A DNA stretch of 64,000 nucleotides, taken from NCBI RefSeq assembly GCF_000018605.1, contig NC_010003.1:1588501-1652500 (forward strand). The letters are read 5' to 3'. A program made the position numbers and the translations under genes. Numbering within the stretch: position 1 is the stretch's first letter; the number at the start of each line of letters is the position of its first letter. The notes beneath the pieces were generated by a model. That model was not told the origin of the DNA. It worked only from the letters and a program-made list of their open reading frames with translations, and searched no databases. The DNA comes from Petrotoga mobilis SJ95 (lineage in GTDB: Bacteria > Thermotogota > Thermotogae > Petrotogales > Petrotogaceae). Positions 44,085-55,573 of the stretch are shown here, in pieces.

Positions 44085-44234
44085 ACAAATCGCGTTGGAG
44101 GCAGATAATTAATTTATTTATCGTCCTCCCACACCACCATACGTACCGTTCGATGGACACCTTACCTCTTTCGACTAGTCCGCTACCTGGCCCACAGCGG
44201 ACTTTCACCGCTTAGCTATTGCCCATGCTGGGCG
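44085..44234 (-). mobile_element. Deleted remnant of a second group II intron
   Basis: Read leftward from 44234 it begins CGCCCAGCATGGGCAATAGC and GCGGTGAAAGTCCGCTGTGG, the same domain I start as the intron at its right but without the first GTG. After about 85 nt it jumps to the 3' strand of domain V and domain VI (GAACGGTACGTATGGTGGTG, then GGGAGGACG). The 5' strand of domain V and all domains between are gone, so it cannot splice. It abuts the 3' end of the next intron. Confidence 0.8.
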
Positions 44235-44869
44235 ATCGGGTAGGAGGTAGATAATTAATTTATCTACCGTCCTCCCACACCACCGTACGTACCGTTCGGT
44301 ATACGGCGGTTCAACAGGATTGATGTCTGTATCCTTTCACATCGTTTCTTCCTCTTTCAGACGTAGAAGTTATATTAGGCGCTTCTACATTATTTTCAGG
44401 CTCTCCCTTATCTTCATGTAGGAAACCTTCTAATCGAAGTTGTATGCCTTTTCCATGTCCCTTCGCATCTTTCAAGATTCGAAACCTCCTGTTGTTCAGT
44501 CCTTCCTCATCTCTCAATGAGTACTATGACCTCTGCTGACTTCTCAAGATTCAGCCATACATTGCTGTATGGGTTGCCTTATCAGCATATTCTTGAGATC
44601 TCCCCAGGTAAGTGCAATAACTTTCATCCCATCTATTCGCCAGATCTACTCCGTGAAGTTCTGGGTAGCTGTTGGACTTCGTTTTGAGTGGCAAACTCGT
44701 CCACTTCACTTAGCCTTGTATCTGGTTCTTGTTCATCGAACCGGGACTTTGCCTTTGGCTTCCTTCAGATTCCACCTCACGGTGGACACCCTTGCCTTTG
44801 GCTAGTGGTTCCCGCTACCTGGCCCACAACGGACTTTCACCGCTTAGCTATCGCGCATGCTGGGCGCAC
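44235..44869 (-). mobile_element. Group IIC intron without reverse transcriptase gene
   Basis: The 5' end is GTGCGCCCAGCATGCGCGAT at 44869. The body has landmark segments remembered from the Oceanobacillus iheyensis IIC ribozyme: AAGGGTGTCC, GGAATCTGAAGGAAGC, GATGAGTTTGC-like GACGAGTTTGC, ACCTGGGGAG, GTCAGCAGAGGTCATAGTAC. Domain V is intact: GAACCGCCGTATACCGAACG then GTACGTACGGTGGTG, followed by domain VI and a CCTACCCGAT end. Domain IV is only about 200 nt; the reverse transcriptase/maturase frame is absent. It sits 5 nt past the terminator hairpin of peptide copy A, the known IIC target preference. Confidence 0.88.
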
Positions 44870-44873
44870 CACC

Positions 44874-44903
44874 AAAGAGAGGAAGTATAACTTTCCTCTC
44901 TTT
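44874..44903 (-). terminator. Terminator hairpin of peptide copy A; intron homing site
   Basis: An 11-bp stem, AAAGAGAGGAA at 44874-44884 with TTCCTCTCTTT at 44893-44903. It begins 8 nt after the peptide stop. The T-tract is cut short by the group IIC intron. Confidence 0.8.
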
Positions 44904-44911
44904 TTCGGTTC

Positions 44912-45076
44912 TTACCAAAGAATAGTTGTTTTAGGAGTTTCACGCCATCCACAACCATCAATGTATTGAGAAACCTCTGGAAAGTACTCCTCGCAATCAT
45001 CCCTGCAACCAAGAGGATTCACATTATTATATCCATTAACATCAACCTTCAATTCTTCTTCTGGTCTTACTTTCAT
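44912..45076 (-). CDS. RiPP-type precursor peptide, copy A
   Basis: 54 residues, with AAGGAGGTGAAACAA in front of the ATG. The N-terminal part MKVRPEEELK and a GY-NVNPLG stretch look like a leader; three Cys at 24, 28 and 42 lie in GCRDDC and DGCGWRET. It is 41 of 54 identical to copy B at 55308-55472, with all Cys and the Trp kept, and only the last seven residues really differ. Copy B lies directly upstream of two radical SAM/SPASM enzymes, so I infer both are substrates of those enzymes. Copy A is the last gene of the leftward operon, before a terminator hairpin. Confidence 0.85.
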   Translation of the reverse strand: MKVRPEEELKVDVNGYNNVNPLGCRDDCEEYFPEVSQYIDGCGWRETPKTTILW

Positions 45077-45176
45077 TTGTTTCACCTCCTTCCACTTTTA
45101 TTTTTACTATTTTCTCTGCAGGATTGCTACTTGCCGGCAAATAGTTATAATCTTTCGCTATGTTTTTACAAGCCAT
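45042..45176 (-). CDS. Possible 44-residue ORF overlapping the start of peptide copy A
   Basis: An ATG frame (MACKNIAKDY, then NYLPASSNPAEK) with a weak ribosome site that overlaps the first 35 nt of peptide copy A in another frame. The block NYLPA-SNPA-K recurs before copy B at 55478-55573, there as NYLPACSNPAGK, while the DNA around it differs more. That suggests selection on the amino acids and perhaps a second small peptide or the tail of one. In copy A the Cys of the block is Ser. The start is uncertain: a TTG at the permease stop is also possible. Confidence 0.4.
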   Translation of the reverse strand: MACKNIAKDYNYLPASSNPAEKIVKIKVEGGETNESKTRRRIEG

Positions 45177-46830: not shown

Positions 46831-48093
46831 ATGTATTTTGTAGGTATTGATATTTCTAAAAACTCTTTTCATTACTACATCTCCGATTCAGGTAGGACCA
46901 AAATCGATAGTGGTAAATTCAAACAGAATATGAGTGGTTTCACCACTTTCGACAAAATTCTTAAAAAGTTCAACAAAAGAGAGATTATAATTGGTATGGA
47001 ATCCACTTCTATTTACCATCAACATTTGTTTTCTTATTTACTTAAACACGATTATGATGTCCATATCATTAATCCCCTTTTGTTGAAAGAATTCAGAAAA
47101 AGTGAAACTCTTCGCCATTCTAAAAACGACAACATTGATTCCAAGCTGATCTCCATTTGGCTGAAAGAAAAGTATCCAGACAACATCCCTTCTTCTAAGG
47201 AGATAGATAATTTCACTCAATACTCTCGCGAGATCATTAACCTTTCTGAGGAGATTTCAAGGGTTAAGAATGAAATCAAACGTTATGTCTACCTTTTGTT
47301 CCCTGAATTGGAATCTTTTCAATCTAATATCTTTATCAAGAGTTTAATGAATTTATTGTATAACTTCCCTTCTGCAAGGAAGATCGCTACAACCAACAAA
47401 AAACAGCTTATTGATGCGATGAAGATAGATAATCAATTGTATTTCGATGAAAATAAGTTGGACCAAATCATTGAACTTTCTAAAAATTCAATAGCAAGTG
47501 GCAACGATGCGCATGAGTTAGCTCTTCAAAAAAGAATAGAATTGTTGTTCAAACTTGAATCAGATCAAAAGCTCTTCAAAGAAAAATTGAAAGAAACTTT
47601 GAACAATTCATCAAACGATGTAATTAAAAACCAGGTAGAATTAATACAATCTCTTGATGGTTTCAATGAAACAGCTTTAAATATTGTAGCAGAAACAGGA
47701 GATATTAACCGATTCTATTCTGCTTCTGCCCTGGTGGCTTTCGTTGGCATCGATCCTCGTACAGAGGAATCAGGTCAAATGAAAAAAGGCTGGTTCATCA
47801 ATAGAAAAGGTAACAGATACCTAAGAAAAGCTGTTTACATCGCTGCCATCGTTGCTATTCAAAACAATGAATACTTCAAGAATTATTACATGAAACTACG
47901 TACTCGAGGTAAATCACATACTGTTGCTGTGTTAGCCGTAGCGGGAAAATTGTTGAGAATAATATATTCACTGGTAAAGAGTGGGAAAAAATATGATTCT
48001 GACTATCATTACAAATTACAAAATCAAGAACTGAGAGCTCATGGCAATTATACAGCAAAAAAATTAAAAAGGAAAAGAGAAATAGTAACCTGA
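46831..48093 (+). CDS. IS110-family recombinase (DEDD transposase)
   Basis: 420 residues. The N-terminal RuvC-like DEDD domain shows VGIDISKNSFH (Asp), IIGMESTSIYHQHL (Glu) and HSKNDNIDSKLISIWL (Asp pair). The C-terminal Tnp20-type domain has IQSLDGFNETALNIVAETG, AFVGIDPRTEESGQMKKG (catalytic Ser area) and NRYLRKAVYIAA. This two-domain form defines IS110/IS1111 recombinases. The gene seems intact, with AAAGCGAGGTG in front of the ATG. It uses the bridge RNA encoded upstream to choose target and donor. Confidence 0.95.
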   Translation: MYFVGIDISKNSFHYYISDSGRTKIDSGKFKQNMSGFTTFDKILKKFNKREIIIGMESTSIYHQHLFSYLLKHDYDVHIINPLLLKEFRKSETLRHSKNDNIDSKLISIWLKEKYPDNIPSSKEIDNFTQYSREIINLSEEISRVKNEIKRYVYLLFPELESFQSNIFIKSLMNLLYNFPSARKIATTNKKQLIDAMKIDNQLYFDENKLDQIIELSKNSIASGNDAHELALQKRIELLFKLESDQKLFKEKLKETLNNSSNDVIKNQVELIQSLDGFNETALNIVAETGDINRFYSASALVAFVGIDPRTEESGQMKKGWFINRKGNRYLRKAVYIAAIVAIQNNEYFKNYYMKLRTRGKSHTVAVLAVAGKLLRIIYSLVKSGKKYDSDYHYKLQNQELRAHGNYTAKKLKRKREIVT

Positions 48094-55307: not shown

Positions 55308-55472
55308 TCAGAAAATAGGACTAGTGTTATCTGTTTCACGCCATCCACAACCATCAATAAATTGCGAAACCTTTTCAAAATATTCGTCGCAATCATCGTC
55401 ACAACCAAGAGGATTCACATTACTATATCCATTAACATCAATCTTCAATTCTTCTTCTGGTCTTACTTTCAT
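55308..55472 (-). CDS. RiPP-type precursor peptide, copy B
   Basis: 54 residues, with AAAGGAGGTGAAACAA in front of the ATG, one of the strongest ribosome sites in the window. Leader-like MKVRPEEELKIDVNGY, then NVNPLGCDDDC and IDGCGWRET; Cys at 24, 28 and 42, Trp at 44, ending in SPIF. It differs from copy A at 13 of 54 positions, most of them conservative or in the tail. It stands directly before two radical SAM/SPASM genes in the same direction. The C-x3-C-x13-C pattern does not match a precursor family that I know by name. Confidence 0.88.
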   Translation of the reverse strand: MKVRPEEELKIDVNGYSNVNPLGCDDDCDEYFEKVSQFIDGCGWRETDNTSPIF

Positions 55473-55477
55473 TTGTT

Positions 55478-55573
55478 TCACCTCCTTTCACTTTTATTTT
55501 TTTCTACTTTTCCTGCAGGATTGCTACATGCCGGCAAATAATTCCTATCCTCACAATCTTTTACTTCAAAAAC
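55478..55573 (-). other. Conserved NYLPACSNPA coding-like block before precursor copy B
   Basis: A frame open from 55573 reads KDCEDRNYLPACSNPAGK and stops at a TGA embedded in the AGGAGGTGA ribosome site of precursor copy B. The only standard start in frame is the TTG of NYL. The same block precedes copy A. It could be a short leader ORF coupled by translation to the precursor, or the remaining end of another small peptide. Confidence 0.4.

Follow-up and report, generated by a model that had tools for sequence, protein, structure and literature searches.

A 635-nt ORF-less group IIC intron in a Petrotoga genome and its probable mobilization in trans by intact parent copies

The minus strand at 44869-44235 was identified, by Rfam covariance models and alignment, as a 635-nt group II intron of class IIC, here termed intron A. 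The stretch of DNA analysed (the window, 64,000 nt) lies within a closed 2.17 Mb genome (G000:C1:1588501-1652500). Intron A is most likely a non-autonomous group IIC retroelement, which lost its ORF in an ancestor and was spliced and moved in trans by the maturase of its parent copies. ORF-less group II introns accompanied by intact helpers are already known, although uncommon, and intron A adds a new example in class IIC; it is not a new kind of element. The parts of intron A were placed as follows.

44235..44869, minus: ORF-less group IIC intron A, from Rfam and base-exact alignment (parent nt 1-543 and 1798-1889)
44613..44786, minus: domain I, greater part (RF02001)
44576-44552, minus: domain II (RF01998)
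44543-44499, minus: domain III (RF01998)
44312..44498, minus: domain IV remnant without RT, ~187 nt, with the ORF deletion junction at 44327/44326
44279..44310, minus: domain V, with CGC triad, 2-nt bulge and GAAC loop (Rfam, fold)
44235..44276, minus: domain VI and 3' end (fold, sequence)
44241, minus: bulged A, candidate branch point, 7 nt from the 3' end (fold, sequence)

Three full-length parents with the common ends GUGCGCC and CUACCCGAU set the ends of intron A to the base by alignment. The 5' GUGCG starts at 44869 and the 3' end, CUACCCGAU, has its last base at 44235, which are exactly the limits given in an earlier, sequence-only reading of this DNA. These ends (GUGCG...CCCGAU) match the group II end signature GUGYG...AY. 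The class IIC assignment of the same reading was borne out by three Rfam models, all matched above gathering, over the full model length and in the correct order along the intron: RF02001 (domain I; 158.7 bits, gathering 32, E 1.9e-33, 44786-44613), RF01998 (DII/DIII; 76.7 bits, E 5e-12, 44576-44499) and RF00029 (DV/DVI; 43.0 bits, E 4e-5, 44311-44240), the E values referring to the whole window. Intron A and its RT-bearing parents showed like scores with all three models. The minimum-energy fold of intron A was 8.8 sd below shuffles (z -8.8), and it contained a domain V with a 2-nt bulge and a DVI with a bulged A. The reverse transcriptase gene, described earlier as missing from a domain IV of about 200 nt, is indeed absent, with no RT ORF inside and a DIV of ~187 nt (intron nt 372-558). 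A plasmid search with the intron A region returned generic IIC matches only.

The upper stem of DV in intron A falls 4 nt short of the Rfam consensus. A defective domain V was ruled out, given that related class C introns normally have this short upper stem, capped by a GAAC loop. The identical DV sequence, CGCCGTATACCGAACGGTACGTACGGTG, is the usual form in relatives from Thermoanaerobacter to Brevibacillus, indicating that domain V is intact, as had been claimed. Intron A may still splice, by lariat or by hydrolysis. The IIC ribozyme of Oceanobacillus iheyensis, used for crystal structures, has the same IIC fold, compact domains and DV CGC triad, and the short GAAC form of the DV upper stem is a difference from it.

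A full-length, maturase-encoding parent elsewhere in the genome had been envisaged, and a search of the same genome recovered three intact copies of 1889 nt each (1343803-1345691, 1358317-1360205 and 460172-462060). Each carries an uninterrupted 486-aa reverse transcriptase/maturase ORF (RVT_1 147.8 bits, GIIM 70.8 bits, TIGR04416 439 bits). RVT_1 and GIIM were the only domains matched in this ORF, with no endonuclease domain, and its relatives together with the RNA class suggest the class C label for the encoded IEP. Intron A corresponds to parent nt 1-543 joined to 1798-1889. The piece that is gone, parent nt 544-1797, is the ORF, starting just 5' of the likely ATG and extending as far as the last codons. 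Because intron A is ~5% diverged from every parent, it may be an old insertion.

The insertion site and the pairing elements were then placed on the same strand.

44912..45085, minus: 57-aa ORF resembling a small precursor, 5' of the hairpin (5' exon side)
44874..44903, minus: terminator-type hairpin, 11 bp with an 8-nt loop, 4 nt (44870-44873) before intron A
44870..44873, minus: IBS1, GGTG, the final 4 nt of the 5' exon, with 4/4 pairs to EBS1
44687..44690, minus: EBS1, CACU, intron nt 180-183, pairing with exon GGUG

The 11-bp terminator hairpin named in the sequence-only reading stood, and only its 5-nt spacing had to be corrected to the 4-nt spacer above. That reading had also held that the insertion fits the IIC homing rule, and the wider set of sites agreed. 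Across 27 insertion sites, 25 of them in the genus, the hairpin score in the 45 nt 5' of the introns had a mean of 12.7, versus 5.3 (sd 1.5) for randomly chosen places in the window and 5.5 behind the introns. The score was at least 11 at 20 of the 25 genus sites, and over the insertion sites the intron began a median of 8 nt after the last G-C pair. At intron A the T-rich tail of the hairpin is interrupted by the intron; a strict terminator scan gave no match at this filled site, and the T-rich stretch is located on the far side of the insertions. The 57-aa ORF had no Pfam match. It is one of two paralogous small Cys-containing precursor-like ORFs on the minus strand (44912-45085 and ~55330-55480), the second of which has no intron and is followed by an unoccupied hairpin.

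The loop at nt 180-183 is hypervariable among intron copies that are otherwise ~95% alike. When this loop was compared with the 5' exon of its own copy, 41 of 60 pairs were formed, against 26.5 (sd 3.7) for exons dealt randomly (P 0.0004, a guide only, as the copies are related and not fully independent). The signal appeared at offset 0 only and was absent at five other offsets. EBS1 was placed at nt 180-183 because this hypervariable loop pairs with the own exon of each copy. For intron A, EBS1 CACU pairs with exon GGUG at 4/4 positions, one of them G-U. The covariance models placed DII and DIII, and covariation with the exons located the exon-binding site.

Besides the interrupted T-rich tail, two further points went beyond the sequence-only reading, a miniature abutting intron A at 44089-44234 and sister ORF-less copies elsewhere. 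The miniatures with listed positions are given below.

44089..44234, minus: 146-nt miniature remnant of the intron, parent nt 4-90 fused to 1826-1889
L054, 1001-1138 (G000:C1:1190801-1190938): miniature
L061 (mini61), 1012-1217: miniature
L168, ~408-601: miniature

The 146-nt miniature stands in direct tandem with intron A and touches its 3' end. It is without the first GTG of the intron 5' end, so that either intron A inserted three bases inside the miniature or three bases were lost. The latter is tentatively favoured because the spacing from the last G-C pair is 7 nt for intron A and 4 nt for a miniature starting with GTG. A match of RF02934 under the miniature was discarded as a chance match (24 bits versus a gathering threshold of 55.5). 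As a side observation, a full intron in another genome runs directly into nt 1-63 of a further copy (L182 4122-4184, G026:C1), indicating that tandem placement recurs in the order.

In total, six miniatures occur at six hairpin sites, the five further ones being ~126-206 nt long and at other sites (L054, L061, L168, L163 and L059). The 5' breakpoints of these five lie at parent nt 81, 82, ~89, 90 and 93. Several miniatures join inside DV, and recognisable outer ends are kept in most. EBS1, DII and DIII are gone, and from what is known of group II introns the miniatures would be unable to self-splice. Larger internal deletions were also found. The 371|1845 deletion is ancestral and occurs at what looks like one shared site in G000, G002, G003 and G005; others are 437|1753 and 250|629. 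The 250|629 deletion occurs at two different sites (L039 and L174; G004:C5 and G001:C34), flanked by a direct repeat, in copies that retain most of the RT and have lost the end of DI, DII and DIII. As proof of trans mobility these two sites were ruled out by the bounding direct repeat.

Given these deleted forms, it was considered whether the miniatures, and perhaps the ORF loss itself, arose from reverse transcriptase skipping structured RNA during retrohoming and not from DNA deletion, an origin we regard as possible but rather unlikely. The 5' breakpoints of the six miniatures, at nt 81-93, fall at or just before an intron hairpin at nt 84-99, which would fit RT jumping, and the joins within DV and the recognisable outer ends point the same way. 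However, the clustering of breakpoints was clearly significant only under a uniform null (P 0.0006), with P 0.05 under a log-uniform null and 0.12 for a reduced set, and DNA slippage would fit the short direct repeats at several deletion junctions equally well. The idea that clustered breakpoints mark the miniatures as a single mobile lineage was dropped, being weak against a fair null. It is likewise doubtful that the miniatures, which consist of the 5' ~80-90 nt plus DV/DVI, represent a recurrent product or a mobile non-autonomous class of their own, made by RT jumps or by maturase insertion without ribozyme activity. An origin of the deleted forms by RT skipping is compatible with intron A being a retroelement mobilised in trans.

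The ORF deletion of intron A is not confined to it. The same 543|1798 deletion, identical in spacing and on its 3' side, was found in copy B, the second ORF-less copy of this genome (1124604-1125239), in a copy of G002:C1, in mini61 (G002:C22) and in L168/L169, which represent one site in G005 and G001. All lie at different sites, giving five sites, and mini61 and L168/L169 are further shortened carriers of the deletion. Moreover, A, B, mini61 and L168 have GATGTGAA in common, where full-length copies have GATGATAA or GATGTTAA. No evident microhomology was seen at the 543|1798 junction in the parent, which makes repeated independent deletion at the same base unlikely. The same deletion and junction at several sites suggest that the ORF-less lineage probably spread in trans. 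The 6 nt directly before the junction are not the same in A, B and the G002 copy. The tree of copies was poorly resolved; A and B appeared as sisters at no more than 84/92, and grouping both with the G002 copy was neither supported nor rejected (p-AU 0.126). Copy B had a DV/DVI match of 34.2 bits, below gathering, and an EBS1 that does not pair with its own exon. With DV/VI damaged and EBS1 unmatched, B is probably dead, and of this genome's two ORF-less copies intron A has been preserved better.

A second case was found in another family of the order. G023 contains five ORF-less IIC introns of 767-768 nt (L185, L188, L191, L194 and L197), which carry one junction at five different sites, alongside five RT-bearing copies. 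The ORF-less copies are 97-98% alike, versus 91-93% to the RT-bearing copies, and this case supports the general reading of spread in trans. A further ORF-less IIC intron (L028 1484-2179, G007), from a sister genus that belongs to the family of the window's host, has a different, independent ORF deletion and also lies behind a hairpin.

If each ORF-less copy had instead been inserted at full length and lost its ORF later by a separate DNA deletion, intron A would be a decaying copy that was never mobile in its ORF-less form. These introns frequently carry internal deletions of varied size, whose 5' breakpoints range over nt 35-540; the 250|629 deletion, flanked by a direct repeat and present at two sites, indicates that recurrence happens, and an ORF-less clade did not emerge clearly from the tree. 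On the other hand, separate losses would have to produce identical 543|1798 spacing at five sites from a parent with no evident microhomology, together with common substitutions absent from every full-length copy. All catalytic domains of intron A are retained with parental scores, and the five same-junction copies of G023, 97-98% alike, also argue against independent loss, which we consider improbable. Retention of the intron A RNA for a host function, such as regulating readthrough past the precursor terminator, is very improbable: the intron does interrupt the T-rich tail between the precursor-like gene and its neighbour on the other side, and the tail would be restored by splicing, but no copy is conserved at the locus in relatives, the paralogous precursor near 55330 is intron-free, and plain retrohoming accounts for all features. 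No empty site at the intron A locus was found among relatives, and G001 is without the whole precursor-intron stretch.

Spread in trans by the parent maturase would proceed as follows. In an ancestor, a deletion in domain IV (parent nt 544-1797) would have removed the RT/maturase ORF, leaving a short closed DIV hairpin and all catalytic domains. The maturase of the intact parents may then bind the ORF-less RNA in trans, and splicing would occur as a lariat via the bulged A of DVI, or, if no protein is bound, by hydrolysis. The resulting RNA-protein particle would reverse-splice into DNA behind a terminator hairpin, where the final 4 nt are complementary to EBS1, and the inserted ORF-less RNA would be copied into the genome by the parent RT. 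Splicing of intron A would rejoin the hairpin to CTCTTTGGTG and, disregarding the miniature, to the T-rich TTTGTTTTTG. Binding, splicing and mobility in trans are predicted here by analogy with IIC introns and with T. elongatus. IIC introns without protein splice almost only by hydrolysis, the IEP bringing lariat formation and mobility, and their target is a terminator stem-loop plus IBS1 (PMC7161350). In T. elongatus, ORF-less introns are driven by the IEPs of related copies (PMC2882425).

The closest precedent is the set of ORF-less TeI3 introns of Thermosynechococcus elongatus (Mohr et al. 2010, PMC2882425). As in Petrotoga, these have a single domain IV ORF deletion with common breakpoints and have spread to new sites; the genome also contains related copies that encode IEPs, the EBS differs from copy to copy, and the host is thermophilic. 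There too, introns are nested in each other and one copy has a large internal deletion. The TeI3 introns differ in being IIB, with longer EBS/IBS pairing, endonuclease-type IEPs and 17 ORF-less copies (PMC2882425). Their trans mobility was shown experimentally (PMC2882425), whereas the Petrotoga introns are IIC, terminator-targeted, present in few copies and characterised from sequence. Ta.it.I1 of Thermoanaerobacter italicus resembles intron A in being IIC, in a thermophilic host and targeted to a terminator stem-loop with a short IBS1; its IEP, required for branched splicing, is encoded in domain IV, unlike in intron A (PMC7161350). The IEPs of the related Thermoanaerobacter wiegelii are 60-62% identical to the parent IEPs of intron A. 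Among the papers searched, nothing relevant was found on group II introns in Petrotoga, and an earlier database entry for intron A is possible.

Two genera of one order have ORF-less IIC introns beside RT-bearing parents, and copies with a common junction occupy several hairpin sites. This offers a compact system in which to test the action of a maturase on RNAs that lack its gene. Intron A is a naturally ORF-free 635-nt IIC RNA for structural work, and it could plausibly serve as a compact thermophilic ribozyme. Elsewhere in the window, a 420-aa ORF on the plus strand (46831-48093), near ABC transporter genes, resembles an IS110-type transposase by its sequence.
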